Assembly: GCF_026343945.1 (NCBI RefSeq)
Contig: NZ_JAPKNJ010000004.1
Location: 248,001 to 312,000, forward strand
Source: Kaistia algarum
GTDB taxonomy: Bacteria; Pseudomonadota; Alphaproteobacteria; Rhizobiales; Kaistiaceae
Direction: 5' to 3'
Length of the DNA: 64,000 nt
Notes under the pieces: model-generated
The model's input: the letters and a program-made list of their open reading frames with translations, nothing else
The model's database searches: none
Told to the model about the DNA's origin: nothing
Translations under genes and position numbers: made by a program
Shown: positions 45,646-62,864 of the stretch, piece by piece
Layout of the letters: the number at the start of each line of letters is the position of its first letter
How positions within the stretch are numbered: position 1 is the first letter of the stretch

Positions 45646-45933
45646 ATGAACACGCTTGTCCGAACCCTCGCTTTGCCCCTGTTCGCCTTCGCAATCGGCT
45701 CCGGCACGCTCCTCGCGCCCGCCTTTGCCGAGGACGCGATGAAGGCCGATCCCATGGCAGCCGATGCGATGAAGGCCGATTGCATGAAGAAGGCTGGCAT
45801 GGAGACCGACGCCATGAAGAAAGATTCGATGATGAAGGCGTGCGACACCGACGCCATGAAGCCCGACGCTATGGCCCCCGATGCGATGGCGCCCGACGCC
45901 ATGAAGCCCGATGCGATGGCGCCGGCCAAGTAG
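45646..45933 (+). CDS. Periplasmic methionine-rich pentapeptide MXKDX repeat protein (MrpX-like)
   Basis: The 95-residue protein has a signal peptide cleaved after AFA (residue 28). The 67-residue mature part holds 13 methionines, mostly in DAMKPDAMAP-type five-residue repeats, plus two cysteines. It matches the MXKDX repeat family. In Azospira suillum a comparable Met-rich peptide (MrpX) soaks up hypochlorite and is re-reduced by a YedY-type methionine sulfoxide reductase. The next genes encode a cytochrome b, a YedY-like enzyme, MsrA and MsrB, so a sacrificial oxidant sink is likely. Confidence 0.85.
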   Translation: MNTLVRTLALPLFAFAIGSGTLLAPAFAEDAMKADPMAADAMKADCMKKAGMETDAMKKDSMMKACDTDAMKPDAMAPDAMAPDAMKPDAMAPAK

Positions 45934-46010
45934 CGGCTGAGCCGCCGCTTGCAAAGGACCCGGCCACCCTCATCGGCCGGGTCCGCTCCCGCCAGGATCG
46001 GAAATCCGCG

Positions 46011-47644: not shown

Positions 47645-47672
47645 TCGTCAGAAATCAGAAGAGGATAGATTC

Positions 47673-48398
47673 ATGTCTCTGAAATGGTTGGGCAATTCCG
47701 CGCACCGCATCGTGATGATCATCGGCGGCGTTGCACTTGTCGGCGCCGCCGTGAGCCTCTCCGGCATCGCTTCAGCCGAGGAAGGCGCGTTCGTCATTCC
47801 GCCGCCGAAGCTGGACGAAAACCGGACGACCGCCCGGGAGACGGCTGTACTGGCTGGCGGCTGCTTCTGGGGCGTCCAGGGCGTGTTCCAGCATGTGAAG
47901 GGCGTGGAAAATGCGGTTTCCGGCTATGCCGGCGGCGGCGCCTCGACCGCGAACTATGACACGGTGAGCGGCGGCGACACGGGACATGCCGAATCCGTCC
48001 AGGTGACCTTCGACCCGCGCATCGTGAGCTACGGGCAGATCCTGCAAGTGTATTTTTCGGTCGCTCACAATCCAACGCAGCTGAACTATCAGGGACCGGA
48101 CCACGGCACCCAGTACCGCTCGGCCATTTTCTACGCAAATCCCGAACAGAAGAAGATCGCCGAAGCGTATGTCGCGCAGTTGGATCAGACCGGCATCTAC
48201 AAGAACGCGATCGTAACAAAGATCAGTCCGCTCCAGGCGTTCTATCCGGCAGAGGGTTATCATCAGGATTTCCTGACTCTGAACCCGAACTATCCCTACA
48301 TCGTCTTCAACGACCTGCCAAAGATTGCCAATCTGAAGACCGTCTTTCCGACGCTCTATCGCGAGAAGCCGGCGCTGGTTTCCGAAGCCAAGGGCTGA
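47673..48398 (+). CDS. msrA: Exported peptide methionine (S)-sulfoxide reductase
   Basis: The 241-residue protein has an N-terminal signal or anchor (VMIIGGVALVGAAVSLSGIASA) before the MsrA domain. The catalytic motif GGCFWG has Cys64, followed by GYAGG, GHAESVQVTFDP and HDQYLN-like FYPAEGYHQDF. It reduces Met-S-sulfoxide in proteins. Being exported, it fits the Met-rich peptide and YedY-like enzyme upstream, from which it is 28 bases away. AGAGGAT precedes the start. Confidence 0.93.
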   Translation: MSLKWLGNSAHRIVMIIGGVALVGAAVSLSGIASAEEGAFVIPPPKLDENRTTARETAVLAGGCFWGVQGVFQHVKGVENAVSGYAGGGASTANYDTVSGGDTGHAESVQVTFDPRIVSYGQILQVYFSVAHNPTQLNYQGPDHGTQYRSAIFYANPEQKKIAEAYVAQLDQTGIYKNAIVTKISPLQAFYPAEGYHQDFLTLNPNYPYIVFNDLPKIANLKTVFPTLYREKPALVSEAKG

Positions 48399-48424
48399 GT
48401 AGGCTCGATCGGATCGGGATCGAG

Positions 48425-48453
48425 GAAGGGCCGCCCATGCCGGGCGGCCCTTC
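48425..48453. terminator. Bidirectional terminator between msrA and msrB
   Basis: GAAGGGCCGCCC (48425-48436) pairs perfectly with GGGCGGCCCTTC (48442-48453) over a 5-base loop, between convergent genes. The 12-bp GC stem and short pyrimidine stretch make it a convincing terminator. Confidence 0.8.
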
Positions 48454-48458
48454 GCCTT

Positions 48459-48947
48459 TCAGGCCGTCCCGACGACAAAGGTGAGCGCGACGCCATTCAT
48501 GCAATAGCGCAGCCCCGTCGGCTCCGGTCCGTCATTGAAGACGTGTCCGAGGTGCCCGCCGCAGCGCCGGCAATGCACCTCGGTGCGGCTCATGCCGAAC
48601 GAACGGTCGGTTGTCGTCCCGACAGCCCGATCGAGCGGCGCGTAGAAGCTCGGCCAGCCCGTACCGCTGTCGAACTTGGTTTTCGAGGAGAACAGCGGCA
48701 GATCACAGCCGGCACAATGGAAGGTGCCGGAGCGCTTTTCGTGATTGAGCGGGCTGGAGCCAGGCGACTCCGTCCCTTCCTGCCGCAACACATCATATTG
48801 GTCGGACGTCAGAATCTTCCGCCATTCGGCGTCGGTCTTCGTCACCTCGAAGGTCCCGGTCGCGGCGATGCCGGCGACCGGGTGGCGCAGAAACGCTGCG
48901 ACGCCTAGCACGGCGCCGGAAAGCAGCATGATTCGTCTGGTGAGCAT
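48459..48947 (-). CDS. msrB: Exported peptide methionine (R)-sulfoxide reductase
   Basis: The 162-residue protein has a signal peptide ([18 protein letters not shown]) and an MsrB domain: [11 protein letters not shown] and [11 protein letters not shown] supply the zinc cysteines, and RYCMNGVAL has the catalytic Cys149. It reduces Met-R-sulfoxide and complements the exported MsrA that converges on it. Together they can repair both sulfoxide forms in the periplasm. Confidence 0.94.
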
Positions 48948-49048
48948 GAGGCGGCCCTCCTTCGGCCTTCGCCGGTTCGCGGCGTCAGGACTAGCTACGG
49001 AGGAAAGGACCGCTTCGTTACCGCGATCACCCGATCTTGATCGCCCTG

Positions 49049-49375
49049 CTATTTGACCGCCGAGAACGCCGTCGGCTGCAGCAGCGAATTAACGACGCCC
49101 GCGAGGATCGGACCGTTCTTCTCGCTGTCATGCTTCACGGCAAGCCATTCCGGATCGGCGATGAAGGTGTTCCATTTCGTCTCGCGCTCGGCCAGAGATT
49201 CCCAGGCGAGCATATAGGTGAGCGTCGCGCTCGAATCGCCGACGATCGTGGTCCAGAAGCCGGCCTGGCGGATGCCATGCTTTTCCCAGATCGCAAGCGT
49301 CTTGTTCTGGAAGCGGGCGATAAGATCGGGCAGGCGCCCCGGCAAGGTCGTGTAGACGCGAAGTTCGTAGATCAC
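49049..49375 (-). CDS. NIPSNAP family protein
   Basis: The 108-residue protein begins [22 protein letters not shown] and has [14 protein letters not shown] and [20 protein letters not shown], the NIPSNAP (ferredoxin-like dimeric) pattern. The biochemical role is unknown, and members often sit in catabolic clusters. It is upstream of, and on the same strand as, nothing obvious, standing between msrB and adenine deaminase. Confidence 0.92.
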
Positions 49376-49464
49376 GGCAAATCCGGCTGTTCGAGTTGAA
49401 AGAAAAGTACTGCAAGAGAATGGCGGTAGTACCCCGTATTTGCAACGCCTCCACGCCCTGAAGG

Positions 49465-51267
49465 TCAGGCCGGCTCGAACAGGGTCTGGATCGCCATTTT
49501 GGGGACCAGCACCAGCCCCTTGTCGGTGATGCGGATTTCCGGGATCACCGAGAGTGGGATCAGGTTGAAGCCCATATAGGGAATGGTGCAGCCGGCCTCT
49601 TCCCAGGCCTTCTTCAAGACCTTCGATTCCTCAGCCACCTCGGTGACGCGCTTGTCGGAAAGGAGGCCCGCGATCGGCAGCGCGACTTTCGCCCGGACCT
49701 CGCCATGGGCAACGACGCAGACGCCGCCCTGCGTCGCGGCGATCGTGTCGAGCGCGAGCTGCATGTCGGCCTCATTGGTGCCGGCGATGATGATGTTGTG
49801 CGAATCGTGTCCGACCGAGGAGGCGACGGCGCCCTGCTTCAGGGCAAAGTTCGACAGCACGCCATGGGCGACATTGCCGGCCGACTTGCCATGCCGCTCG
49901 ACGACGGTCACGAAGCAGAGGCCGTGGCGATCGAATAGCGTCTGCCAGTCATTGGCCGGCTGGATCGCGATCCGCTCATGGCCGAGCACGATGCCCGGCA
50001 ATTCGGTGCGGATCGCATGGAGGATGCCGGGCGCCGCCGGCAGGTCCGGCGTCAGCTTGAGCGCCTTCGGCAGCTTGACCGTGTGATAGGCGGCTTCCGG
50101 ATAGCGATAGCGTTCCGACAGCGCGGCATCGAGTAGCGGCGTGATCTTCTTGTTGTCGACGACGAGTTCGCCGCCATACCAGGTCGAGACCGGTTCGAGG
50201 TCGTCGGTCATCAGCACGAGGTCGGCGCGACGGCCGCCGCCCATGCCGCCGATCTCGCCGTCGCGGCCGAAACGCGTAGCGCCATGCAGCGAGCCCATCG
50301 ACCAGGCCTGCTCCCGGCTCATGCCGGCCTTCACCGCCTCGCGTACGACCCAGTCGAGCCCGAACGCCATCAGATCATCGGCGTCGCGATCATCGGTGCA
50401 CACCGCGATCCGCTTATGCGACGCGCCAAGCTCCGTGACGGTCTTGATCGCGAGCGGCAGTGAATGCCACGGCGTCGTGGGCGGACCGCCGCGCAGAAAC
50501 AGCCAGATGCCGGCCTCCAGCATGTCGTCGGCGATCTCGCGGTCGATCGCCTCATGCGTGTCGGTGACGCCGCTCGCGGCATAGGCGGCGACGAATTCGC
50601 GGCCATAGACATGGCCCGAGACCGGACGACCGCGCTCCAGCGCGGCAGCGAGGATCGCATGGCTGCGCTCGTCGCCCATGGTGACCGGCACGAAATCCAT
50701 CTTCTCGCCGAGCGCGACCGCCTCCGGCCATTTGTCGAAGAGCGCGGCGATCTTATCCGCCGTCAGATCGCCGCCAGCCGTCTCCAGTTCGGCCGAGGTC
50801 GCCGGAACCGTGGACGGCACGGTCAGGAAGATCGACAGCGGCGCCTCGCGCGCATCCTCCAGCATCGCCTCGACGCCGGCGACGTCCATGACGTTGCCGA
50901 TCTCGTGGCTGTCGCAGAAGATCGTCGTGGTGCCGTTCAGGAGCGCGGCTTCCGCATAGGCGCAGGCCGTGACCATCGAGGATTCGATGTGGATGTGCGG
51001 ATCGACCAACCCGGGCCCGACGATGCCGCCCTTGGCGTCATAATACGCCTTCGCCCCGCCTTTGTGCGTGCCCGCCGGCTTCACCGCGGCGATGCGCCCG
51101 CCGGCGACCCAGATCTCGCGATCCGTCAGGATGCGCTCGGAATAGGTCGAGAGCACTCGTGCATCGCGGATCACGAGATCGGGCGCGGCCCGACCAGAGG
51201 CCACGTCGGCGAGACGGCGCGTCATGGTGGAAAGCGGTGCGACGGAAAAGCGGGTGAGCTTGGACAT
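49465..51267 (-). CDS. ade: Adenine deaminase (second copy)
   Basis: The 600-residue protein has [13 protein letters not shown] at residues 85-97, [11 protein letters not shown] at 118-128, [12 protein letters not shown] and VGHDSHNI, the adenine deaminase metal and substrate motifs. The start at 51267 follows GGAG 7-8 bases upstream. It differs clearly from the copy at 403-2136 (for example CDSHEIGN against CDPHEIAN). It is on the same strand as, and 83 bases after, the GST gene, so it belongs to the modified-purine locus. It may deaminate a modified adenine. Confidence 0.92.
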
Positions 51268-51350
51268 GGGGACTCCGATAATGACGACGCTTAGGCTGGG
51301 ATCACGACAGCGTTTCGAGAAGCAATATCGCAGCCGCCGTCTCCCTTCGC

Positions 51351-51980
51351 TCAATGATAATCCGGAATTCCCGGCATGGTGACGAAGCCGGGAATCGCCC
51401 GCACCCGGCGCATCCAGCGGCGAAGCGCTGGATATTCGTCATGGTCTATACCGAAATCGCGCGACAGCGCGATCGAGGGAAAGAGGGCGAGGTCGGCGAG
51501 CGTGGGCTCATCGCCGACGAACCATTTCGCCCCGGCCAATTCCCGCTTCGTCAGATGATCCTCCATGATTCGGAAGGCGGCACGCGCTGCCTTGTCGAGC
51601 GCGATCGGATCGCCAGGCGCTTCGAGCATATGATGGAGGCGCGCCGCCGTCGCGGCGGCAAGCTCACGCGCGGCGAAGATCAGCCACTGCGTGACGGCGG
51701 CGAAGGCGGCGGCCTGCTGCGGAAGCCAGGTTTCTACGGGATCATGGCGGAGGGCGACATAGGCGAGGATCGCCTCGGCCTCGTAGAGCACGAGGTCGCC
51801 GTCGACGAGGATCGGCAGCGCGCCGAGCGGATTCAGCCGGCGGTAGGCCGGCGACCGCTGCTCGCGCCCCGGATGGACATTGACGGGCACCTTCTCATAG
51901 GCGACGCCGAGCACGGAGAGCAGCAACCGCACCTTGTAGGCATCGGCGTCGAGTTCGTAGTCGTGCAGGATCAGGCTCAT
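51351..51980 (-). CDS. Glutathione S-transferase homologue
   Basis: The 209-residue protein has a thioredoxin-like N-terminal half ([52 protein letters not shown]) and an all-helical C-terminal half with the conserved [13 protein letters not shown] cap. It overlaps the Rieske gene by ATGA, so the two are made together. In methylxanthine degradation the GST-like NdmE is needed for a Rieske-less N-demethylase to associate with its Rieske-bearing partner. A similar scaffold role is inferred here. Confidence 0.88.
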
Positions 51981-52672
51981 CGCATTGCCCTCGCCAGATG
52001 CGCCTCGGGCGTGAGCTCCGAGAGCGGGACAGACTCCAGTACAGCGCGGAGTTCCTCGGCCCATCCGGCGATTCCGACGGCGTCCGGCTCGCCCTCCGTC
52101 TGCACGACGTGCAGCGCAGTGCGCTCGGCCGTGAAGGGCTGGAGTTCGAGACGGACCGTGGAACCCTCGACTACCGTCGCGAAGCTGGTGGGTGACAGGA
52201 TCTCGAACGGTCCGGCGATCCCCCCGCTAAATAGGGAAGCGATCGTTTCGGGCGAACGTTCGACGTAGAGACTGCGCACCGGCGTTCCCGCGAAATCGGA
52301 CGGCGGCGGCACTGGTGCTTCGGCCGTCATTTCAGACCAGATCCAGAGGAGACCGCCGGCCTCGACGCTCGGATAGGTCGTGACTTTAATCGTGTCCGGC
52401 ACTGCGAGGTCAGGATGGGCCGGGATGTAGCGGCACTGGCCGGCGGTGTCATATTGCCAGCCATGATAGAGGCAGGCGATGTGATCGCCCCGGACGAAGC
52501 CGAAGGAAAGGCGCATGCCGCGATGCGGACAGCGATCCTCCCAGGCGTGCGCGGCGCCGCTTTCGTCCCGCCAGATCACGATTTCCCTGTCGAACAGCCG
52601 CGTTCCCGCCGACGTGCCGGGCTCCAGCCCGTCGGCGATGGCGACCGCATACCAGCCGGCCTCGAAGCTCAT
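51977..52672 (-). CDS. Rieske [2Fe-2S] protein without an oxygenase active site
   Basis: The 231-residue protein has a Rieske domain of the ring-hydroxylating oxygenase type: cluster ligands Cys48 and His50 in CPHRG, and Cys67 and His70 in CLYHGWQYD. The C-terminal 130 residues resemble a shrunken oxygenase C-terminal domain, but no D-x2-H-x4-H iron motif is present. It could deliver electrons to a separate catalytic subunit, the best candidate being the Rieske-less protein at 60229-61113. It overlaps the GST gene and follows the acylphosphatase-like gene by 43 bases. Confidence 0.88.
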   Translation of the reverse strand: MSFEAGWYAVAIADGLEPGTSAGTRLFDREIVIWRDESGAAHAWEDRCPHRGMRLSFGFVRGDHIACLYHGWQYDTAGQCRYIPAHPDLAVPDTIKVTTYPSVEAGGLLWIWSEMTAEAPVPPPSDFAGTPVRSLYVERSPETIASLFSGGIAGPFEILSPTSFATVVEGSTVRLELQPFTAERTALHVVQTEGEPDAVGIAGWAEELRAVLESVPLSELTPEAHLARAMR

Positions 52673-52715
52673 CTCTGTACCGCCTTCTCTTCCAAAACCC
52701 TGCGGCCGACGCCGC

Positions 52716-52958
52716 TCATCCTCTCGAACCGGTCCGCTCGACCTCGAGCACCAGGCAATCGATCGGCCCCAGCGAGCAGGCCATCTCGAACATGTCGACC
52801 AGATCCGGCTCGCCCTCGACCTCGACCTCGATGCGCTCGGGCTCGATGCGCCGCGGCCTGGCCTCGATCGACAGCCTCGCCGCGCGATGGCGCATGAATT
52901 CCGCGAAGCTCTCCGGCACGAATGCGCCGACGAAAACCATGGTCGCCAATGCCCTCAT
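52716..52958 (-). CDS. Small acylphosphatase-like protein
   Basis: The 80-residue protein overlaps the AraC gene by ATGA. It begins with MRALATMVFVGAFVPESFAEF and has EVEVEGEPDLVDMFEMACSLGP, which resembles the beta-alpha-beta layout of acylphosphatases (V.G.V...F, then VEVEG and GP). The catalytic arginine and asparagine are not certain. It could bind a small ligand or subunit. I place it in the same operon as the Rieske protein. Confidence 0.55.
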   Translation of the reverse strand: MRALATMVFVGAFVPESFAEFMRHRAARLSIEARPRRIEPERIEVEVEGEPDLVDMFEMACSLGPIDCLVLEVERTGSRG

Positions 52959-53920
52959 GATGCCCGCGCATCGGCGAAGCCGGCGAGGCTCTGGCGGCGA
53001 TATTCGCGCGGCGCCACGCCGTAGCGCGACTTGAAGGCACGGCGGAAATGCGCGTCGCTGGAAAAGCCGGAACGTAGCCCGATCTCGTTGACGGTGAGCG
53101 CCATGAGCTCGGCGCTTTCCAGCCCCTTGCGGCCTTGGTCCAGGCGTCGCTCGCGGATCCAGTCCGTGACCGACTGTCCGTCGCATTGGAATAGGTGATG
53201 CAAGTAGCGCACGGAGATGCCGTTAGCGCCGGCGATCCGCTCGGGATTGAGGCCGCTATCCGTCAATTCTCCGTCGATGAAGGATTTGACGGCGTTCAGC
53301 CGGCGGCGCTTTACGGCCGAACTGCGATTTTCCTGGCTCTCGGAAAGCAGCGCCACCAAAGCCCCGAGGCTCGCCGCCATCCCCTCGGCAAAGGCCTCCT
53401 TGGCGCGCTCCGACGGGATCGCATGGATATCGGGAACAGCGCGAGCGCTGCCCAGCAAGGCTGCCAGGATGCGATCACCGGATTCGATCCGCACGGCGCA
53501 GACATCCTCCAGGCAGGAGACATAGAGCCCGACGCGGCTCGATGGCACCTGGAGGAGCATGACGGCGCATTCCTCGTCCTGGATATATTCCAGCGGCGCC
53601 GTCGTCATGTGGAATGCGGCCTGTCCGGGCTCCAGCGTCACGCTGCGGCCGAACTGGGAAAATGTGCAGCGCCCGTCGAGTGGCACGGCGAGAACGAGCC
53701 GCCGCCGCTGGGCGCGGTGGATTTCCTGCGGCGTCTGCTCGGCGACGTAGCGCGGAGCCCGGAACAGCCGCATGCCGAGGCTGCCTATGTCCCAGAGCGA
53801 GAGGGACGCGCGAAAGCCGGCCCGATCGGAGGGCCGCACCGTCATCGGACTGCAGCTTTCCCACATGAGCTGCTGCCAGTCGGGATGATCCAGCAGGCGC
53901 TTCGTGCCGGGTGCGAGCAT
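52955..53920 (-). CDS. AraC-family transcriptional regulator
   Basis: The 321-residue protein has an AraC-binding-like N-terminal domain (RLVLAVPLDGRCTFSQFGR, LEPGQAAFHMTT) and a C-terminal double HTH: NPERIAGANGISVRYLHHLFQ and TVNEIGLRSGFSSDAHFRRAFKSRYGVAPREYRR. The start at 53920 has GGAG 9 bases upstream. It heads the minus-strand operon and is divergent from the deaminase/transporter set, so it probably activates both. Confidence 0.9.
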   Translation of the reverse strand: MLAPGTKRLLDHPDWQQLMWESCSPMTVRPSDRAGFRASLSLWDIGSLGMRLFRAPRYVAEQTPQEIHRAQRRRLVLAVPLDGRCTFSQFGRSVTLEPGQAAFHMTTAPLEYIQDEECAVMLLQVPSSRVGLYVSCLEDVCAVRIESGDRILAALLGSARAVPDIHAIPSERAKEAFAEGMAASLGALVALLSESQENRSSAVKRRRLNAVKSFIDGELTDSGLNPERIAGANGISVRYLHHLFQCDGQSVTDWIRERRLDQGRKGLESAELMALTVNEIGLRSGFSSDAHFRRAFKSRYGVAPREYRRQSLAGFADARAS

Positions 53921-54177
53921 TCTGGGCGACTCCTGTGGAGGGATAACACCGCCTAACATTCAGGCATGTCTATCGTGTGAGCAAAGCGACTGCAATGCGG
54001 CGTCCGCGAACTGCGGCACGGCGACCGACCCTGCAGCGCAAGACGAACAGCGGCTGAGCGCAACGCCGCGAAGGAGCTTTGCGCGCCGCCTCATCCCACC
54101 GCTTGATCCGTGCCGATCGAGGGCTATCGACGCGGACGCTGGCCTGAAGATTGCTTCAAATGACGCAGGAGACCACC
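53921..54177. promoter_or_regulatory. Divergent control region between AraC and deaminase operons
   Basis: This 257-base gap must carry the promoters for both halves of the locus. I found no perfect long palindrome, and AraC sites are normally direct repeats that I could not define by eye. Confidence 0.4.
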
Positions 54178-55230
54178 TTGGATATCGAGACCTTTGCCCG
54201 CCGGATCCCAAAGATCGAACTGCACCTTCACCTCGAAGGCGCGGTCCGGCCTGCCACATTCGTTGAACTGGCGCGGAAAAATCACGTCGACATCCCGCCG
54301 CATGGCGAGATTGCCGAGCTGTATCGCTACGACAATCTGCCGGATTTTCTGAAGATCTACGACCTCGTCAGCCGATCGATCCGCGACGCCGACGATTTTC
54401 ACCGCGTCACCTATGAAATGCTGGAAAGCTGCGCCGACAGCGGCGCGCGCTATGTCGAGTTCTTCTTCTCCGCCCATGCGCACCAGGCCCATGGCGTCGC
54501 CTATCCGACGATGCTGACCGGCATTTTGGCGGCCATGCGCGATTTCGAGACGGATAGAGGCGTGCCGTCGCGCCTCATTCCAGCGCATAGCCGAGAACTC
54601 GGGCTGCAACGCGGCCTCGAATTCCTCGACATGGTGCTGGAACACAGAAGCGATGAAATAATAGGCATCGGCCTCGACTATAACGAAGCGCCGTTTCCAC
54701 CGGCCCCGTTCCAGCCGCTCTTCGAGCGCGCCGCCGACGCCGGTCTGCGCCGGACGGCCCATGCGGGCGAGAGCGGCCCGGCCGAGAATGTGCGCGATTC
54801 CCTGGCCGTCCTCGGCGTCGACCGCATCGATCATGGCTATCACATCGTCGACGATGCCGAATTGGTGGCCGCCTGCGTCGAGCAAGGCACGTTCTTCACC
54901 TGCTGCCCGAGCACCACGACCGGGACCACCATCTGGCGCGATCTTTCGGCGCCCGATCACGCCATCAAGCAGATGATCGACGCCGGGCTCAACGTCACGA
55001 TCAATTCCGACGACCCGCCGATGTTTCGGACCGATCTCGCCAACGAGTTTGTGCTTGTCGCGCGCGACATGAAACTCAGCCCGGAACAGCTGAAGACATG
55101 CGCGCTGACGTCGATCGACGCTTCGTGGCTTGACGACAGCGTCAAGCGCGACTGGCGCGCCGCCTGGACGGCGGAGATCGACGCCATGATTGCCGATCTC
55201 GATACGGCGCCGGAAGCGCTATCCGCCTGA
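54178..55230 (+). CDS. Adenosine deaminase family protein (second copy)
   Basis: The 350-residue protein carries HLHLEG at residues 16-21, RTAHAGESG, RIDHGYHIVDD and NSDDPPMF, the adenosine-deaminase metal and catalytic motifs. The start is taken as TTG 54178, with AGGAG 6 bases upstream; ATG 54160 is an alternative. It leads the BMP-transporter operon. With an adenine deaminase in the partner operon and an importer beside it, it likely deaminates an imported purine or nucleoside, possibly a modified one. It is not closely similar to the copy at 37560. Confidence 0.9.
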   Translation: MDIETFARRIPKIELHLHLEGAVRPATFVELARKNHVDIPPHGEIAELYRYDNLPDFLKIYDLVSRSIRDADDFHRVTYEMLESCADSGARYVEFFFSAHAHQAHGVAYPTMLTGILAAMRDFETDRGVPSRLIPAHSRELGLQRGLEFLDMVLEHRSDEIIGIGLDYNEAPFPPAPFQPLFERAADAGLRRTAHAGESGPAENVRDSLAVLGVDRIDHGYHIVDDAELVAACVEQGTFFTCCPSTTTGTTIWRDLSAPDHAIKQMIDAGLNVTINSDDPPMFRTDLANEFVLVARDMKLSPEQLKTCALTSIDASWLDDSVKRDWRAAWTAEIDAMIADLDTAPEALSA

Positions 55231-55260
55231 CAACGACAGAACCACGACAGAGGGACAATA

Positions 55261-56382
55261 ATGATCGATCTGAAGAACCTGAACCGCCGCCATTTCATGG
55301 GGCTTGCCGGCATGACTGCCGCCGCCTCGATGATGCCATGGACGCTTCGCCAGGCCGCCGCCGCCGCGCCGCTGCCCGCCGTCAAGGAGGAGGAGGCGGT
55401 GATCGGCTTCGGCCATGTCGGCCCGATCTCGGACGAGGGCTGGACCTACAGCCATCACCAGGGCCTGCTCGCGGTGAAGGACGCCTTCCCGAAGGCCAAA
55501 TATCTGGAAGTCGAGAACATCCCCTTCTCGGCCGACGTGACGCGCATCTATCGCCAGATGGTGTCCGATGGCGCCAACATGATCTTCTCGACGTCGAACT
55601 ATGGCGACCTGCTCTATGAGGTCTCCGACCGTTCGCCCGATGTCGGCTGGTTCGAATGCGACGGCCGCCGCCCGGCCGACAATCTCTCGGGCTACTATAT
55701 CCAGCACTGGTATCCGACCTATGTCGTCGGCGTCGCCGCCGGCCTGCTGTCCAAGACCGGCAAGCTCGGCTATGTCGCCTCCTTCCCGGTCCCTTCCGTC
55801 TTCTCCGGCACCAATGCCTTCCTGATGGGCGCGCGGTCTGTGAACCCGAACGCGACGCTGCAGGCGGTCGTGATCAATTCCTGGTTCGATCCGCAGGGCG
55901 CCAAGCAGGCCGGCACGGCGCTGATCGACAATGGCGCCGACTTCCTGTTCGGCATCATGGACGAGGCCGCCTATCTGCAGGTGGCCGAGGAGCGCGGCGT
56001 TTGGGCGGCGATGTGGAACACCGACATCCGCCGCTATGGCCCGAAATCCTATGTCTCGTCGATCGTGCTCGATTGGCGTGAATTCTATGTCGAGCAGGTC
56101 AAGAAGCGCCTCGCCGGCGAATGGGCGGGCGGCGAGGAGATCCTGCTGCCGATGGGCAAGGGCATCGACCGCGACGCCTGGGGCGAGAATGTCCCGGCCG
56201 ATGTCGCCGCCAAGGCCGACGCGGTCCGCACCAAGATGCTGACGGAAGGCTGGAGCCCCTTTGTCGGCGAGATCAAGGACGCCGAAGGCACGGTCCGCGT
56301 TCCCGCCGGCCACAAGATGACCGAGCAGGAACTCTACAATTGGGACTGGTCGATCGAGGGCGTTTCGGGGCTCAAGGTCTGA
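55261..56382 (+). CDS. BMP-family nucleoside-type ABC transporter substrate-binding protein
   Basis: The 373-residue protein has a twin-arginine signal (NRRHFMGLAGMTAAASMMPW) and a BMP/PnrA-type binding fold: IGFGHVGPISDEGWTYSHHQG, FSTSNYGDLLYE, GAKQAGTALIDNGADFLFG. The family binds purine nucleosides and related bases in the periplasm. It is followed by a large hairpin and then its ATPase and two permeases. Confidence 0.92.
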   Translation: MIDLKNLNRRHFMGLAGMTAAASMMPWTLRQAAAAAPLPAVKEEEAVIGFGHVGPISDEGWTYSHHQGLLAVKDAFPKAKYLEVENIPFSADVTRIYRQMVSDGANMIFSTSNYGDLLYEVSDRSPDVGWFECDGRRPADNLSGYYIQHWYPTYVVGVAAGLLSKTGKLGYVASFPVPSVFSGTNAFLMGARSVNPNATLQAVVINSWFDPQGAKQAGTALIDNGADFLFGIMDEAAYLQVAEERGVWAAMWNTDIRRYGPKSYVSSIVLDWREFYVEQVKKRLAGEWAGGEEILLPMGKGIDRDAWGENVPADVAAKADAVRTKMLTEGWSPFVGEIKDAEGTVRVPAGHKMTEQELYNWDWSIEGVSGLKV

Positions 56383-56401
56383 TCGGACTTCCAAAAACAA
56401 G

Positions 56402-56530
56402 CAAGGCCCTCACCCCAACCCTCTCCCGCTCGCGGGAGAGGGGGCGCCAACGATGAGCTTCGAGGCGTGTAAGACACGCAGTCGGAACTCCCTCGCCCGC
56501 TCGCGGGAGAGGGCTGGGGTGAGGACCTTG
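56402..56530. repeat. Long inverted repeat between binding protein and ATPase genes
   Basis: The 28-base arms 56402-56429 and 56503-56530 are complementary at 26 positions, and each also contains a smaller CCCGCTCGCGGG hairpin. The element lies in the 174-base gap inside the transporter operon. It could stabilise the upstream mRNA or reduce read-through to give more binding protein than ATPase. Confidence 0.65.
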
Positions 56531-56556
56531 CTAGACACTGCCTCGACGATCGATCG

Positions 56557-58122
56557 ATGAGTAGCCATCCCATGCCTGCTGACCACAAACCCCGCCCGAT
56601 CATCTCCCTTCACGGCATCGGCAAGGTGTTCCCCGGCGTCGTCGCCAATGCCGATGTCGATTTCGACCTGGAGCCGGGCGAAATCCACGCTTTGCTCGGC
56701 GAGAATGGCGCTGGCAAGTCGACGCTTATGAACATTCTGACCGGGATTTACCGGCAGGATTCCGGCGAGATCCGCATGGATGGCACGTCGGTCCATTTCG
56801 CCTCGCCCGTCGAGGCGATCGCGGCGGGCATCGGCATGGTGCACCAGCATTTCAAGCTGGTCCGCGCCTTCACCGTCGCCGAAAACGTGCATCTGGGCTG
56901 GAAGGATACGCCGCGCCTCGCCACGAAATCCGCCCTCGAAGCGCGCACCCGCTCCTTGTCCGAGCGCTACGGACTCGTCGTCCGCCCAGACGCCCGGATC
57001 GACGAACTCTCGGCCGGCGAGCAGCAGCGCGTCGAAATCCTGCGCGTCCTCGCGCGGCAAGCCCGCGTCTTGATCTTGGACGAGCCGACCGCCGTGCTGA
57101 CGCCGTCCGAGGCGCGCACGCTGTTCAGGGCGCTCAGGGCCTTCAAGGCGGCCGGCAACTCCGTCATCTTCATCTCGCACAAGCTCGACGAGGTGCTGGA
57201 GATCTCCGACCGCGTCACCGTGCTGCGCGGCGGCAGGAAGGTGCTGACGGAAAGAACCGAGAACTGCACCACGACCAAGCTGGCGCAATGGATGGTCGGC
57301 CGCGAGATGGTGCTGGGGGGCCTCCGCGAAGCGATCCGTCCGCATGCCGAGCCGGGTCGTATCGTCCTGGCGCTCGAAAAAGTCTCGGCCAGCGACGATC
57401 GCGGCCGCAAGGGACTGATCGAGGTCGACCTGCCAGTGCGCGCCGGCGAGATCCTTGGCATCGCCGGTGTCGCCGGCAACGGCCAGCGCGAGCTCTCGGA
57501 GATCCTGACCGGCATTCGCAAGCCCGATTCCGGCCATGTCCTGATCGAGGGCGTCAGGATCGCCAACCCATCTCCCGATTTCTTTCTCGACATCGGCGTC
57601 GGCCATATTCCCGAGGACCGCATCAAGAGCGGCATCGCGCCGTCACTGTCGATCAGCGACAATGCCGTGCTGCGCGCCTATGCCGAGCCGCCGATCGCGC
57701 ATGGCATCCTCTTCTCGCCATCGGCCGCCGACCGACTGGCGACGGAGATCGCCGACGACGCGGAGGTCGTCATTCCTTCATTGCGCACGCCGATCCGCAA
57801 TCTCTCCGGCGGCAATCAGCAGCGCCTCGTCGCGCGGCGCGAGATGCGCATCGCCAAGCTCGCCATCGTCGCGGCCTATCCGTCGCGCGGGCTCGATGTC
57901 GGCGCGATCTCGACGCTGCTCCACTATCTGATCGACTTGCGCAATTCCGGCGTCGCGGTCGTGCTGATCTCCGAGGAACTCTCCGAATTGTTCGATGTCA
58001 CCGACCGCATCGCCGTCATGTTCAAGGGCCGCGTCATGGGCCTGTTCGAGACCAAGGACGCGGATCTCGAACGCGTCGGCCTCCTGATGGGCGGCCAGAC
58101 CCAGACCGGCGAGGCGGCCTGA
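56557..58122 (+). CDS. Nucleoside-type ABC transporter ATPase (two ABC domains)
   Basis: The 521-residue protein has two ABC domains. The first has Walker A GENGAGKST at residues 48-56, LSAGEQQRVEILR and VLILDEPTAVL. The second has GVAGNGQRELSE and LSGGNQQRLVARREM, where the Walker B region is altered (AIVAAYPSRGLD), as is usual for the second domain of this class. It powers import by the two permeases downstream, the first of which starts 1 base after its stop. Confidence 0.95.
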   Translation: MSSHPMPADHKPRPIISLHGIGKVFPGVVANADVDFDLEPGEIHALLGENGAGKSTLMNILTGIYRQDSGEIRMDGTSVHFASPVEAIAAGIGMVHQHFKLVRAFTVAENVHLGWKDTPRLATKSALEARTRSLSERYGLVVRPDARIDELSAGEQQRVEILRVLARQARVLILDEPTAVLTPSEARTLFRALRAFKAAGNSVIFISHKLDEVLEISDRVTVLRGGRKVLTERTENCTTTKLAQWMVGREMVLGGLREAIRPHAEPGRIVLALEKVSASDDRGRKGLIEVDLPVRAGEILGIAGVAGNGQRELSEILTGIRKPDSGHVLIEGVRIANPSPDFFLDIGVGHIPEDRIKSGIAPSLSISDNAVLRAYAEPPIAHGILFSPSAADRLATEIADDAEVVIPSLRTPIRNLSGGNQQRLVARREMRIAKLAIVAAYPSRGLDVGAISTLLHYLIDLRNSGVAVVLISEELSELFDVTDRIAVMFKGRVMGLFETKDADLERVGLLMGGQTQTGEAA

Positions 58123-58123
58123 C

Positions 58124-59176
58124 ATGGCGATCCGCTTCGTTCGCAGCCCGATCGTCTCGCCCTCGAGGGCGCTTGCCGCCCGTGTCGCCGGCTTCGTGCT
58201 GGCGCTCGGCCTTGGCGCCGTCGTGCTGGGAATTGCCGGGTTCGATCCGCTGCATCTGGGCACCCAGATCATCGTCAAGAGCCTGGGCTCGCGCTTCGGT
58301 CTCGAGGATCTCGGCCTGCTCTTCACGCCGCTGTTGCTCACCGGGCTTGCCGTCACGGTCATGGCACGCATGGGCCTCTGGAATATCGGCGCCGACGGCC
58401 AGTTTTATCTGGGCGCGCTGGTGACGACGGCGATAGGCCTCTTCATCAAGGGCCCCGAGCCGTTCATGCTGGTCCTGTGCTTTTTCGCGGGCGCGGCCGG
58501 CGGCGCGCTCTGGATCCTCGTGCCCACGCTCGCCAAGGCCTATGCCAAGGTCGACGAGATCATCACGACGCTGCTCCTGAATTTTGTCGCCCTGCTGCTC
58601 GTCTATTATGTTGCGACCGGCCCCTGGCGCGACCGCGTCTCGGGCACGACCGCCTCGACCGGCCGTGTGCCCTACAAGATGCCGGATTTCTTCGGTTCGC
58701 TGCATTGGGGCTTCGTCATCGCGCTCGCCGCGCCGATCCTGTTCGCCCTGGCGCTACGCTACACGAAATGGGGCTACGAGGTGCGCCTTTCCGGCGCCAA
58801 TCCCGACGCCGCCCACTATGCCGGCATTCCCGTCCGCCGCCGCTTGATCACGATCATGCTGCTCTCCGGCGCCATCGCCGGCATTGCCGGCATGCTGGAG
58901 GTCACGGGCACGGTGCACCGCCTGCAAGGCGGCATTTCCAACAATTACGGCTATCTCGGCGTCATGGTCGCGGTGCTGGCGCGCGGCTCGGCCATCGGCG
59001 TCATTGCTGGGGCCTTCCTCATGGCGCTGATTCTGAACGCGGGCATCATCCTGCAGACTCAGGGGCTCACGACCAGCGCCGTACTAGCGCTCACCGGCCT
59101 CATCATGCTGTTCACCGCGATCGCCGACCAGTTCGCCCATTACCGCCTCGTCCGCCCGCAAGCGGCGACGGGCTGA
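58124..59176 (+). CDS. Nucleoside-type ABC transporter permease
   Basis: The 350-residue membrane protein belongs to the BPD_transp_2 family with about eight to ten membrane segments. Typical segments are WNIGADGQFYLGAL and RLSGANPDAAHYAGIPVRRR. It is one half of the channel of the BMP-type importer. Confidence 0.93.
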   Translation: MAIRFVRSPIVSPSRALAARVAGFVLALGLGAVVLGIAGFDPLHLGTQIIVKSLGSRFGLEDLGLLFTPLLLTGLAVTVMARMGLWNIGADGQFYLGALVTTAIGLFIKGPEPFMLVLCFFAGAAGGALWILVPTLAKAYAKVDEIITTLLLNFVALLLVYYVATGPWRDRVSGTTASTGRVPYKMPDFFGSLHWGFVIALAAPILFALALRYTKWGYEVRLSGANPDAAHYAGIPVRRRLITIMLLSGAIAGIAGMLEVTGTVHRLQGGISNNYGYLGVMVAVLARGSAIGVIAGAFLMALILNAGIILQTQGLTTSAVLALTGLIMLFTAIADQFAHYRLVRPQAATG

Positions 59177-59187
59177 GGAGAAAAGCG

Positions 59188-60123
59188 ATGGACATCATCA
59201 CCGGAATCCTCGCAACAGCGGTGCTGGCCGGCGGCGTGCTGGCGCTCGCGGCGCTTGGCGAGGTGCTGGCCGAGCGCGTCGGCGTGTTCAATCTCGGCGT
59301 CGAAGGGCTGATGGCGCTCGGCGGTGTCACGGGCATCATCGCTGTCACGATCATCCCGAATCCGTTCTTCGGCTTCGCCATGGCGCTGGTCGTCGGCCTC
59401 GTCTTCGGCGCGATCTTCGCTCTGGCAACCGTCACCTTCCGCGCCAATCAGGTGCTCTGCGGCCTCGCCCTCACGATGCTCGGCTCCGGCCTCGCCGTGA
59501 CGATTGGAAAACCTTATTCCGGCATGCCGGCCAAGGCGCAGTTCGACAAGGTGATCGTGCCCTATCTGTCGGACCTGCCGATCCTCGGCCGCGCCTTCTT
59601 CTCGCAGAACATTCTCGTCTATCTGATCTATCTCATCGTTCCGGCGGTCATCGCCTTCGTGCTGTTCCACACACGCCACGGCATGAATGTGCGTGCTGTC
59701 GGTGAGAATCCTGCCGCCGCCGACTCCGCCGGTATCGCGGTCAGGCGCATCCGCTTCCTCTACGTCACGATCGGGGCGGCTCTCGGCGCCGGCGCGGGCG
59801 CCTATCTGACACTTGCCTTCGTGCCCTCCTGGTCGGACGGCGTCGTCGCCGGTCGCGGCTGGATCGCCGTCGCTTTGGTCATCTTCGCCGGCTACCGGCC
59901 GTTCGGCGCGGTGTTTGGCGCCCTCTTGTTCGGCGTCATCACCGCGCTCGGCTTCGTCGGCCAGGCCCGCAACTGGCCGATCGCGCCGCCCTTCCTCTCC
60001 ATGCTGCCCTATCTTGGCACCATCGCGGCGATGATCCTGCCGGTCTTCGTCTGGAAGCGGCTGCGTCTCTCCTTCACCGCCCCGGCCGGCCTCGGCATTC
60101 CCTATTTCCGCGACGAGAGATGA
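59188..60123 (+). CDS. Nucleoside-type ABC transporter permease, second subunit
   Basis: The 311-residue BPD_transp_2 permease has NLGVEGLMALGGVTG and MNVRAVGENPAAADSAGIAVRR, the second-subunit pattern of BMP-type transporters. GAGGAG precedes the ATG at 59188. It completes the importer. A short hairpin repeat (about 60155-60178) separates it from the oxygenase gene. Confidence 0.93.
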   Translation: MDIITGILATAVLAGGVLALAALGEVLAERVGVFNLGVEGLMALGGVTGIIAVTIIPNPFFGFAMALVVGLVFGAIFALATVTFRANQVLCGLALTMLGSGLAVTIGKPYSGMPAKAQFDKVIVPYLSDLPILGRAFFSQNILVYLIYLIVPAVIAFVLFHTRHGMNVRAVGENPAAADSAGIAVRRIRFLYVTIGAALGAGAGAYLTLAFVPSWSDGVVAGRGWIAVALVIFAGYRPFGAVFGALLFGVITALGFVGQARNWPIAPPFLSMLPYLGTIAAMILPVFVWKRLRLSFTAPAGLGIPYFRDER

Positions 60124-60228
60124 GGGAGGTAGCCGCCGCCTCCTGAAGTGCCGCCATCCTCTCCCTCTGGGAGAGGTAGAAAATTGCAGCTACTGCTACT
60201 CCTGAGCCCGAACTCCAAGGACCATCCC

Positions 60229-61113
60229 ATGGCATCGATCCACGCCCAACGGCCGGCGGAAAAGGCCTCCCTCGACCAGTGGTACGTCATCGACGCGGTC
60301 GCCGACATTCCGGACGAGCCACGCCCCAATCGCCTGCTGGGGCGCGATCTCCAGGTTGAGCGCGAGGCAGACGGCACGGTGATCGTCCGCGAGAAGCTGG
60401 AAGGCGGCGCCCTCGGTGACAAGCTGCCGACAATCGAGCGCTGGGGCTATGTCTGGACCAGCCTCGGAACGCCGGAGCGCGGCCTGTTCGAGCTTCCCGA
60501 GGCCGATGAAGGCGACCGCCGCCATGTCGTCTGCGGCGCCGTCGCCGTGAAGGCATCGGGGCTGCGCATCGTCGAGAACTTCCTCGACATGGCGCATTTT
60601 CCCTTCGTTCATACCGATATCCTCGGCGCCGAGCCGCACACCGAAGTGCGCCACTACACCACCGAGATCCGCCGCGACGTCGACGAGGTCTGGGCGACCA
60701 ATTGCGAGTTCTTCCAGCCGCAAGCCGCCATGTCGGCGCAGGGCGGGATCATGACGCAGTACATGTACCGCGTCATGGCACCCTTCCAGGTGCTGCTCTA
60801 CAAGACCTGCCCGGCCGCCGCGAACCGCTGGGATGTCATCTGCCTGTTCGTGCAGCCCGTCGACCATGACTATTGCCGGGCGCATCCGGTGATGTTCATC
60901 ATCGACGATGAAAGCTCGCTGACGTCGATGGTACATTTCCAGCAACTGATCTTCCTGCAGGACCGTATCATTCTGGAAAACCAGCGCCCGCGCCTCCTCC
61001 CGCTCGAACCCCGCGCGGAGATCCCGACCCGCGCCGACGTCTCCTCCATCGCCTATCGCCGCTGGCTCAAGGAAAAGGGCGTGACGTTCGGAACGGCGGA
61101 GAAGGCGGCCTAG
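60229..61113 (+). CDS. Rieske-less ring-hydroxylating oxygenase catalytic subunit (NdmC-like)
   Basis: The 294-residue protein aligns by eye with Rieske oxygenase alpha subunits: LDQWYVIDAVADIPDEP and NRLLGRDLQVER at the N-terminus, and IVENFLDMAHFPFVH at 115-128 with the iron motif D-x2-H-x4-H (Asp120, His123, His128). LQDRIILENQRP supplies the expected third ligand. The CPHR...YHGW cluster segment is missing: the chain runs from residue 55 straight to WGYVWTSLG. It cannot receive electrons by itself. The separate Rieske protein at 51977 is the likely partner. N-demethylation or hydroxylation of a purine is inferred. The ATG at 60229 follows AAGG. Confidence 0.85.
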   Translation: MASIHAQRPAEKASLDQWYVIDAVADIPDEPRPNRLLGRDLQVEREADGTVIVREKLEGGALGDKLPTIERWGYVWTSLGTPERGLFELPEADEGDRRHVVCGAVAVKASGLRIVENFLDMAHFPFVHTDILGAEPHTEVRHYTTEIRRDVDEVWATNCEFFQPQAAMSAQGGIMTQYMYRVMAPFQVLLYKTCPAAANRWDVICLFVQPVDHDYCRAHPVMFIIDDESSLTSMVHFQQLIFLQDRIILENQRPRLLPLEPRAEIPTRADVSSIAYRRWLKEKGVTFGTAEKAA

Positions 61114-61121
61114 CTGAGATC

Positions 61122-61568
61122 TCAATGCTGGGCGAATATATCAATTGCCGTGAGTTGGCACATGGACACGGCAGCGCCCGCAATGGTCTCCCCTTGCGTG
61201 AGTTGCTTGACGCCATAGAACTTAAGCACACTTGGCTCCGTGACTTGCTCGTGGATGCCAATAAGGCTGCTCTGCAGCAACCTCGTGAGCGAGGAAGGAA
61301 CGCACCAATAGATCGATGCGCCGATCGCCTTAGCGCCACAGAAGCGACCTTGTTTATTCAATGGAATGCTGCGCCAGGCTTGTGCCCGTCCGTCCGCGAA
61401 TTTGAGCACGACCGACACTTGGCGGGACGTATAACCGGTCTTCTTGAGAAACGAAGCCAGCACCTCTCGCTCGCGGGTTGGAGCCAACAATCGACAATCG
61501 CCCGCCACGGCGTGGCCAACAATGAGAACCAAGGCCGCAACGAATGCGGGGACTGAAAGGGCTCTCAT
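61122..61568 (-). CDS. Exported hypothetical protein
   Basis: The 148-residue protein starts with a signal peptide (MRALSVPAFVAALVLIVGHAVA) and then GDCRLLAPTREREVLASFLKK. The mature part has four cysteines and looks like a small alpha/beta secreted domain, with no family I know. Base composition is lower in GC than the neighbouring oxygenase gene, on which it converges with an 8-base gap. Confidence 0.6.
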   Translation of the reverse strand: MRALSVPAFVAALVLIVGHAVAGDCRLLAPTREREVLASFLKKTGYTSRQVSVVLKFADGRAQAWRSIPLNKQGRFCGAKAIGASIYWCVPSSLTRLLQSSLIGIHEQVTEPSVLKFYGVKQLTQGETIAGAAVSMCQLTAIDIFAQH

Positions 61569-61677
61569 TACTGTCCGCAACCCGCTCTTAGCGAGCCGCC
61601 CTAGCGGCCCGCGTTGATGGCCAAAGCCTATCGTCGAGAAACCGGACTCGCAATCTCCCCGATCCTGCACCGCAGCC

Positions 61678-62001
61678 CTAAAGCCCCAGCGAAACCGCCG
61701 TCTTCACCGCATTGCCGATCGCGCCGGGCAGGATCGCCATCGTCTCGTTGGGCGTCATGATCGGGGTCACTTCGGCATTGGTCCCGCCGATCAAATGGAT
61801 CAGATGCGCCGCCTCGCTGAGGAGCGCCATGTCCTCGGTGTTGACGATGACGAACAGCTCGCGCTTGAAGATCGAGACATAGAAGGTCTCCGGCTTCAGC
61901 AGTTCGAGCAGTTTGCCGATGACAGGATCGGCGCCGCCATTTGAGCGGTCGATCTTGCTGCCAGCCTCCATGGATACTTCGAAGCGAACCATGTATCGCA
62001 T
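61678..62001 (-). CDS. Small hypothetical protein (ferredoxin-fold-like)
   Basis: The 107-residue protein begins RYMVRFEVSMEAGSKIDRS and has FYVSIFKRELFVIVNTED. It is predicted as a short alpha/beta protein similar in outline to dimeric ferredoxin-like domains. GGAGG lies 8 bases before the ATG at 62001. The function is unknown. No close link with neighbours. Confidence 0.65.
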   Translation of the reverse strand: MRYMVRFEVSMEAGSKIDRSNGGADPVIGKLLELLKPETFYVSIFKRELFVIVNTEDMALLSEAAHLIHLIGGTNAEVTPIMTPNETMAILPGAIGNAVKTAVSLGL

Positions 62002-62190
62002 GTCGATGTCCTCCCGTGGTGAGCCGGCATCCGCCCCGTGATGGGTCTGCCCGCCGCCGACCGGCTGCGAAGCGGGCACGGTAGAACCAGCTTCGTCACG
62101 CCTCGCATTGCGGCAAGGACCGGCATCGCGGGCGCGACGCGCTTGCGAACGCCATGCGTTCCTTGCCGCTACCGAGGCCGGCCGAAGGTC

Positions 62191-62514
62191 TTAATCGGCG
62201 CCCGGCACGGCCACCGTCCCGCTGGCGATTTCGATCGGCTTGCCATGGACACCGCCTCGCAAGGCGCGCGCATCCAGCAGCATCACCGCGGCGGGTGAGG
62301 AAGTGGTGGCAGGAGCACGGCTCCAGGCCAACGTCTCGCCTGAGACACCGGTCGGCCCGATACCGGCACGTACCAAGGCGCCGGGCGTGCCGCCGAGCGG
62401 CTTCGGGCCGGATGCCGCCATGTCGTCCTCGCAGGCCAATGCGCTCCCCGCCATGATGGTCAGCATACAGGACGCAAGAATGTTCACGCCAACTCGGAAG
62501 ATCCTGGGCTTCAT
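62191..62514 (-). CDS. Small exported hypothetical protein
   Basis: The 107-residue protein has a signal peptide (RVGVNILASCMLTIMAGSALA) followed by a low-complexity Gly/Ala/Pro-rich mature part. GGAGAGG precedes the ATG. It has no recognised domain. It is upstream of the DUF-like gene at 61678 on the same strand, with a gap of about 190 bases in which nothing is seen. Confidence 0.55.
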   Translation of the reverse strand: MKPRIFRVGVNILASCMLTIMAGSALACEDDMAASGPKPLGGTPGALVRAGIGPTGVSGETLAWSRAPATTSSPAAVMLLDARALRGGVHGKPIEIASGTVAVPGAD

Positions 62515-62864
62515 ATTCCTCTCCCTTGCTCCGTCAGCGCCTCCACGCCGACGCCGCCCTGGCCCATCGTCAGGACGGTTGGGCGAGCTTGGATCTAGAC
62601 GGAGCTTCTAAGACGCTAACGGTCTCATCCTCTTTGCGCTTCGCCCGGGCCCCATGACAGAGCCGCCCCCTCGCGGCGATCAGACACATGTCCGATTGTA
62701 TGCAATCTACTCTCATTGCATACAATCTCAAGCGTGCCTTCGGCCATGTCTCTGCCGCACACCTCCCGCACCGCACCCTTTCCGTTGCCCCACTGTCCGG
62801 CCCATGCTCAACTCCGCGCCGCACCCGAATGGGCGGCGATTCATGACAGGCAAGGAGTGACGAC
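62515..62864. other. Gap between the exported protein and the amidase gene
   Basis: No credible gene is in these 350 bases. The centre holds the double operator at 62694-62727, and AAGGAG at 62852-62857 serves the amidase GTG start. Confidence 0.5.
62694..62727. promoter_or_regulatory. Double operator: perfect 13-bp inverted repeat upstream of the amidase
   Basis: GATTGTATGCAAT (62694-62706) and ATTGCATACAATC (62715-62727) are exact complements around 8 bases. Each arm is itself nearly symmetric (ATTGTATGCAAT), as in GntR/FCD-type operators, so two dimers could bind side by side. The regulator is not identified in the window. Confidence 0.75.

Follow-up and report, generated by a model that had tools for sequence, protein, structure and literature searches.

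A split Rieske oxygenase resembling NdmCDE, linked to deaminase-family genes and a likely purine-base importer in Kaistia algarum

The stretch of DNA analyzed here (hereafter the window) comprises 64,000 nucleotides of contig 4 of the 5.26-Mb genome of Kaistia algarum. Between positions 49465 and 61113, it carries genes for two incomplete Rieske-oxygenase chains, a glutathione S-transferase (GST)-like protein, a small acylphosphatase-like protein, a regulator, two deaminase-family proteins and an ATP-binding cassette (ABC) transporter (Table 1). The catalytic chain is hereafter named CAT, the Rieske protein RSK and the acylphosphatase-like protein APL; ADE and ADA designate the adenine deaminase and adenosine deaminase family proteins. 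A first-pass annotation of the window had described a catalytic subunit without a cluster and a Rieske protein without an iron site, and domain scans and motif counts in the listed homologues bore out both descriptions.

The domain scan of the window proteins gave no match of CAT to PF00355, and a search for the C-x-H...C-x2-H Rieske motif in this protein found none. Its mononuclear-iron motif is complete (D120-x2-H123-x4-H128), and residues D120, H123, H128 and D245 are invariant across 20 aligned homologues. For RSK, the scan gave no match to a catalytic-domain model, and the D-x2-H-x4-H motif is absent. The same division was seen in the homologues: among the matches listed, the 120 closest to CAT all carry the iron motif and none the Rieske motif (120/120 and 0/120), which argues against an intact cluster elsewhere in this oxygenase family, a possibility raised in the first-pass annotation. 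The 120 closest to RSK, again among the matches listed, all carry the Rieske motif, with the iron motif in 1/120. The combination of a cluster and a mononuclear iron on one chain, which marks a canonical Rieske oxygenase alpha subunit, was found in neither protein. The predicted model of RSK superposes along its whole length on complete Rieske oxygenases, NdmA included. The AlphaFold2 model of CAT had a mean pLDDT of 48.6, was confident only at about residues 11-90 and was left out of the fold searches; its alignment was probably too uniform. CAT and RSK are thus almost certainly the two parts of a split oxygenase with complementary redox sites, and the shrunken catalytic domain of RSK hints at how the split arose.

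We then evaluated the co-occurrence of the two genes in an order sample of 297 genomes (CAT, E ≤ 1e-40; RSK, E ≤ 1e-30). CAT matched 49 genomes, RSK 48, and both matched 47. All exceptions belong to one family, f210: G421 and G461 matched CAT only, G524 matched RSK only, and G495 matched both at overlapping places. As in full-length oxygenases, the CAT matches in this family begin at column 51 of the model, within frames of 338-396 aa, and the G524 frame measures 364 aa. With these four genomes set aside, CAT and RSK were present in the same 46 genomes and lay within 12 kb on one contig in all 46, so that the co-occurrence predicted from the window was observed outside f210. The RSK frame was shorter than 450 aa in 31 of the 46 genomes (split systems) and at least 573 aa in 15, all of which have a reductase match, that is, an NdmD-type fusion (fused systems). 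Within the stretches fetched around the loci, GST was found in 31/31 split and 14/15 fused systems (45/46), and a separate linked reductase in two of the 31 split systems (G466 and G606).

A second collection consisted of the best 80 of 556 loci, at least five of which come from genomes also present in the order sample. RSK and GST were found in 78 of these loci, separated by a median gap of 3 bases; both were missing in L083 and L085, which are short contigs with CAT near the end. In a phylum sample, CAT matched 22 of 398 genomes (E ≤ 1e-40). Seven of the 22 are weak matches (144-167 bits) that resemble full-length enzymes in beginning at columns 52-57 and in the length of their frames (329-400 aa); three of the other 15 lie outside the class. 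CAT matched 8 of 385 genomes in a class sample.

Table 1. Genes of the split-oxygenase locus in the window
Feature	Position	Strand	Remarks
Adenine deaminase family (ADE)	49465-51354	-	PF13382 168 bits; TIGR01178 346 bits, under its 472.5 cut-off; nearest solved 3nqb Adenine deaminase 2, E 2.2e-63
GST-like protein (NdmE-like)	51351-51980	-	PF02798/PF00043; listed frame 51351-52064
RSK, stand-alone Rieske [2Fe-2S] protein, shrunken catalytic domain without iron site	51977-52672	-	231 aa; PF00355 84.6 bits
APL, degenerate acylphosphatase-like small protein	52716-52940 (or start 52958)	-	directly upstream of RSK
AraC-family regulator	52955-53959	-	PF12833, PF14525
Adenosine deaminase family protein (ADA)	54151-55230	+	PF00962 238.7 bits; TIGR01430 287 bits, above its cut-off
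BMP-family periplasmic binding protein, likely for purine bases	55261-56382	+	PF02608 130.5 bits
ABC transporter ATPase	56557-58122	+	NF047930 436.5 bits, under its 670 cut-off
ABC transporter permease 1	58124-59176	+	NF047929 158.7 bits, under its 400 cut-off
ABC transporter permease 2	59209-60123	+	NF047928 142.4 bits, under its 465 cut-off
CAT, catalytic Rieske-oxygenase subunit without [2Fe-2S] subdomain (NdmC-like)	60229-61113	+	294 aa; PF19112 VanA_C 81.4 bits

The genes listed in the first-pass annotation were all recovered: domain and family scans confirmed the linked ADA homologue, the adenine deaminase, the BMP-type importer and the AraC regulator, as well as a GST homologue overlapping the Rieske gene. 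APL, directly upstream of RSK, had been overlooked. For GST, the internal ATG at 51980 is preferred over the listed start at 52064, which reduces the overlap with the RSK stop from 88 to 4 bases. The real start of ADE probably lies 3' of the listed TTG. Further out in the window, cytochrome-b-like, sulfite-oxidase-like (46868-47644), MsrA-like and MsrB-like genes were seen by eye in a row at 45780-48947, giving the impression of a methionine-sulfoxide repair group. An amidase-family gene (62865-63998, PF01425) crosses the window end and was matched in one of the 80 related loci.

APL was found in 79 of the 80 loci, the remaining copy (L085) being cut by the contig end. In the order sample, it was present in 29 of the 31 split systems and in none of the 15 fused ones; it was absent from G394 and G606, and the copy in G466 lies about 6 kb from RSK. 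A family model built from 28 of the 79 loci with a family match recovered acylphosphatases of the Protein Data Bank (PDB) (best E 4.1e-4). This family profile was needed, as the window protein alone gave no PDB match at E ≤ 1. It scored 14.9 bits against PF00708, under the cut-off of 22.5, and 5 of 13 members matched at E ≤ 0.05. At the catalytic positions, which we take to be an Arg and an Asn, four of 81 members keep the Arg and two of 81 the Asn. The close association of APL with split systems, together with its absence from all 15 fused systems, suggests that this protein has a structural function or serves in docking.

The resemblance of the locus to NdmC/D/E, noted at first pass, was upheld by the closest relatives. 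CAT is 47% identical to, and in one clade with, cluster-less NdmC-type proteins encoded on plasmids of Pseudomonas putida Tik1 and Klebsiella pneumoniae MS6671. On both plasmids, the cluster-less protein is followed by a 585-aa Rieske-reductase protein and then by a GST, which is the order ndmC-ndmD-ndmE. The same arrangement was found with BMP transporters on plasmids of Mesorhizobium AR02 and S. medicae, and the AR02 guaD gene adjoins the GST gene. Plasmid pRlvE of R. leguminosarum carries, on one strand, APL, RSK, CAT, GST, an amidohydrolase and a BMP transporter. In Paracoccus alcaliphilus, the order is RSK, CAT, GST and a stand-alone VanB-type reductase, with a transporter, an acylphosphatase and an 8-oxoguanine deaminase in addition; this cluster looks like an intermediate between the split and fused forms. 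RSK matches the Rieske part of NdmD-type proteins. The full RSK profile reaches residue 210-212 of three of them, which raises the idea that NdmD may keep the same shrunken domain; a profile of the RSK C-terminal part matched just two NdmD-type frames (L150 and L137, E < 1e-3).

In a tree of 73 sequences, one branch (100/100) separated 68 cluster-less CATs from five full-length oxygenases. Of 41 split CATs, 40 formed one group (92/95), and these 40 joined the remaining split CAT and the proteins of P. putida and K. pneumoniae in a group of 43 (90/96); both groups miss the stricter mark of the tool. The outgroup branches are very long, which limits what the tree can say on the direction of change (fusion or separation as the ancestral state). 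L007 was left out of alignment A4, its row being out of frame. Several observations were made in passing on these relatives. The ndmD-like region of a P. putida 1290 plasmid (L097, 9847-11602) is annotated as three short genes versus one of 585 aa in the Tik1 plasmid (L095), and it looks like a decaying ndmCDE cluster. The ndmC-ndmD-ndmE-like cluster of K. pneumoniae MS6671 plasmid A (L096, 6728-13382) is flanked by insertion-sequence transposases; this plasmid, from a clinical isolate, is typed as conjugative. Genes for 2-oxoglutarate/iron oxygenases recur beside purine deaminases near some split and fused systems (L106 near 6300, L113, L115, L151, L095).

A second cluster-less CAT, 60% identical to the first, is encoded outside the window in the same genome (CAT2; C4:16860-17723, L091:10860-11729). 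It sits between a TRZ/ATZ-type amidohydrolase gene and a xanthine-dehydrogenase-type gene, directly before the latter, which scored 692 bits against pucD, under its 784 cut-off. The genome thus holds two CATs and one RSK match. At the E limits given above, two CAT matches with one RSK match were counted in 5 of the 31 split and 6 of the 15 fused genomes; these copy counts cover only the best candidates of a first look, so that a more divergent second RSK may have escaped them. In G617, a stretch of about 26 kb contains two CATs and the single RSK-GST pair, together with guanine, adenine and adenosine deaminase and xanthine-dehydrogenase matches. Because such genomes have two CATs and one RSK, they suggest that one electron-transfer chain is common to CAT and CAT2. 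In six of the 15 fused loci (L140, L142, L144, L145, L147, L148), two cluster-less CAT genes were seen in tandem before a single ndmD-like gene.

Analysis of the gene environment could give clues regarding the substrate. Of the 80 loci, 59 have the BMP transporter, 52 a gene of the adenine deaminase family, 50 a guanine deaminase, 32 a gene of the 8-oxoguanine-deaminase type, 8 ADA and 4 the AraC regulator; cross-matches between related amidohydrolases are possible in the deaminase counts. At least one deaminase match was present in 62 of the 80 loci. Checked against NCBIfam, the guanine deaminase directly after CAT in L035 scored 411 bits versus a cut-off of 375.4, and the 8-oxoguanine deaminase directly before CAT in L020 scored 604 bits versus 532. 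Among solved structures, AtzT (6pi5, E 1.6e-61) and 3s99 (E 1.5e-58) come nearest to the BMP protein. According to the abstract of the AtzT paper, this protein kept guanine through purification; its binding is given as 0.11 µM for guanine and 2.5 µM for adenine, and 3s99 has adenine modelled (PMC6834077). Since these relatives bind the bases guanine and adenine, the importer, first described as a nucleoside importer, is likely better named a purine-base importer.

We therefore read the locus as a purine-base uptake and oxidation module with an NdmCDE-like two-chain Rieske monooxygenase, likely N-demethylating a methylated purine base (probability about 0.6). The parts of this reading differ in strength. 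The substrate is probably a purine; N-demethylation is somewhat favoured over another oxidation; N7 as the position attacked falls a little short of even odds. Our best guess for a route, resting on the deaminase neighbours, the purine-base importer and the action of NdmCDE on 7-methylxanthine, would be 7-methylguanine to 7-methylxanthine to xanthine. Of the two substrates offered as examples in the first-pass annotation, methylated xanthine fits this proposal, and methylated adenine is no better supported than methylated guanine or xanthine. A literature search did not find 7-methylguanine, a demethylase and Rieske together in any paper, and the papers listed included nothing on bacterial 7-methylguanine demethylation.

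Several observations weigh against this reading. No linked reductase was found in any of the 80 close loci with three reference reductases as queries; for the subgroup of the window, this supports the earlier expectation that a distant reductase would be needed. In the K. algarum genome, the three FAD_binding_6 matches are unlinked and unspecific. One of them, a 336-aa protein with a Fer2 match (contig C8, 570-1580), could be the electron donor, but nothing connects it with the locus. In favour of the reading, stand-alone reductases do adjoin split systems in Paracoccus, G606 and G466, as expected of a separate donor. On the substrate side, 18 of the 80 loci, several of them short contigs, have no linked deaminase or xanthine-dehydrogenase match, and xanthine-dehydrogenase-type genes are linked in 0/80 loci, 3/31 split and 3/15 fused systems. 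Within the window, CAT has no guanine deaminase gene next to it; two that score above the cut-off lie elsewhere in the genome. Among the scanned window proteins, no formaldehyde-handling gene was found, linked ones elsewhere not having been sought; the caffeine cluster is described as carrying frmA and frmB (PMC4408171). The closest solved structures also point elsewhere, as discussed below. Finally, we know of no activity for any split member.

The main alternative is ring hydroxylation of an unmethylated purine such as hypoxanthine or xanthine by the split oxygenase, as reported for Klebsiella HpxDE, with no methyl removed. The top solved matches of both halves, SxtT and SxtDIOX, which rank ahead of NdmA and are hydroxylases, speak for hydroxylation. 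Pantoea plasmids carry genes with the hpxD annotation whose products are about 30% identical to CAT over residues 70-284. According to PMC7373994, both hypoxanthine and xanthine are oxidised by HpxDE, and a xanthine riboswitch is found with purine-oxidation sets that include Rieske and 2-oxoglutarate oxygenases and guanine/8-hydroxyguanine deaminases. However, the close relatives of CAT (44-47%) are NdmC-type and not HpxD, and with a xanthine-dehydrogenase-type gene beside CAT2, a Rieske enzyme leading to that product would be superfluous. Moreover, no riboswitch was found in window positions 45000-64000 or in seven related loci, which spoke against control by the xanthine (NMT1) riboswitch: Rfam returned nothing in the former at E ≤ 0.5, and its matches in the latter were limited to an sRNA and a group II intron. 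We consider ring hydroxylation unlikely.

Less likely again would be an N6-substituted adenine as the substrate, either N6-methyladenine or a base resembling a cytokinin; its dealkylation would yield adenine, which ADE or ADA would deaminate. The window has both of these genes, many named hosts are rhizobia, and the adenine deaminase family is linked in slightly more of the 80 loci than guanine deaminase (52 versus 50). It is nevertheless a guanine-deaminase-like gene that lies just 3' of CAT in 43 of the 80 loci and an 8-oxoguanine-deaminase-like gene that lies just 5' in 18 (one of each being the NCBIfam-checked genes above), and no ADE was seen in R. leguminosarum-type operons. NdmCDE, for its part, acts on N7 of 7-methylxanthine (PMC4408171). 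Cytokinin degradation was also looked for as a known Rieske pathway, and the literature search gave nothing relevant. It is very improbable that CAT, lacking a cluster, is a pseudo-oxygenase or a regulatory subunit and that RSK serves other full-length Rieske oxygenases: the genome does hold other Rieske-domain proteins and full-length oxygenase matches, and the part of a ferredoxin is in principle open to a Rieske protein, but the metal-site residues are invariant in the 20 aligned homologues, CAT and RSK always occur together in the 46 genomes, and the cluster-less NdmC is described as active with NdmD and NdmE (PMC4408171).

Under the N-demethylation reading, the BMP-type ABC transporter would import a purine base, and the deaminases would turn amino-purines into oxo-purines. 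An unlinked NADH reductase would give electrons to RSK, whose Rieske cluster would pass them to the mononuclear iron of CAT, where O2 would be activated; GST, and probably APL too, would hold RSK and CAT together. Oxidative N-demethylation, with N7 favoured, may then follow: for example, 7-methylguanine would be deaminated to 7-methylxanthine and demethylated to xanthine, which would pass on to xanthine dehydrogenase. The architecture, the complementary loss of the redox sites, the co-occurrence, the gene order and the purine context were observed; in this scheme, we infer the formation of the complex, the electron path, the role of APL, the demethylation and its N7 specificity. If it is true, soil and symbiotic bacteria would have a nitrogen route from methylated purine bases. 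The linked deaminases and purine-base importer narrow an "unknown function" to a short substrate list, and a separate Rieske chain without a reductase offers a smaller, simpler system for studying inter-chain electron transfer and the role of GST. A broader picture can be drawn, which is rather unlikely to hold as a whole. It would be that of a widespread, undescribed class of two-chain Rieske enzymes derived from two copies of one ancestral enzyme, each of which lost the redox site that the other kept. In place of the covalently attached reductase of NdmD, an inactive subunit with the acylphosphatase fold would be the docking adaptor for a general reductase, one Rieske donor would serve the interchangeable chains CAT and CAT2, and the class would salvage 7-methylguanine and other methylated bases released from RNA in rhizobia.

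Among known systems, HpxD is likewise a Rieske oxygenase of purine catabolism, about 30% identical to CAT over the catalytic part. It is a full-length enzyme working with the reductase HpxE, whereas CAT has no cluster and no linked reductase was found in the window or the 80 loci. SxtT and SxtDIOX (GxtA) (6wn3 and 6wnc) are the closest solved sequences: CAT matched 6wnc over chain residues 110-333 (E 6.9e-22) and RSK matched 6wn3 over residues 11-120 (E 5.9e-26). We take both to be full-length, single-chain enzymes of an unrelated pathway. The caffeine N1/N3-demethylases NdmA and NdmB (6ick, 6icl) share the oxygenase fold, and CAT and RSK both match NdmA; NdmA and NdmB are described as having cluster and iron on one chain (PMC4408171), whereas the locus studied here has two chains.

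The nearest system is NdmCDE of P. putida CBB5, with its cluster-less catalytic subunit NdmC, the cluster on NdmD, the GST-like NdmE and a purine context. It is reported to convert 7-methylxanthine to xanthine by N7-demethylation, with NdmE required, and is described as "very unique" within the Rieske oxygenases; the same paper already noted ndmCDE homologues, for the most part from Sinorhizobium and Mesorhizobium, with their function stated as unknown (PMC4408171). The enzyme is described as a 3:3:3 complex of 360 kDa (PMC10380055), the structure of which is stated to be unsolved (PMC13237722). A term search of a 2025 review of Rieske oxygenases (PMC12445004) returned no mention of NdmC. In our literature searches, in which coverage of subscription papers was thin, no earlier description was found of APL or of the reductase-less split form. 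CAT shares 44-47% identity with the NdmC-type proteins encoded in ndmC-ndmD-ndmE clusters on plasmids of P. putida, K. pneumoniae, Sinorhizobium and Mesorhizobium, which were compared here in place of the CBB5 proteins. The K. algarum locus shares with NdmCDE a cluster-less CAT with an iron site, a Rieske domain on a separate linked polypeptide and a linked GST. It differs in that CAT lies about 7.5 kb from RSK on the opposite strand, an acylphosphatase-like gene is added, and the 231-aa Rieske protein has no flavin/NADH reductase or plant-type ferredoxin domain. Because the NdmD fusion is part of the definition of NdmCDE, the reductase-less locus is a variant of this system and not a member of it.

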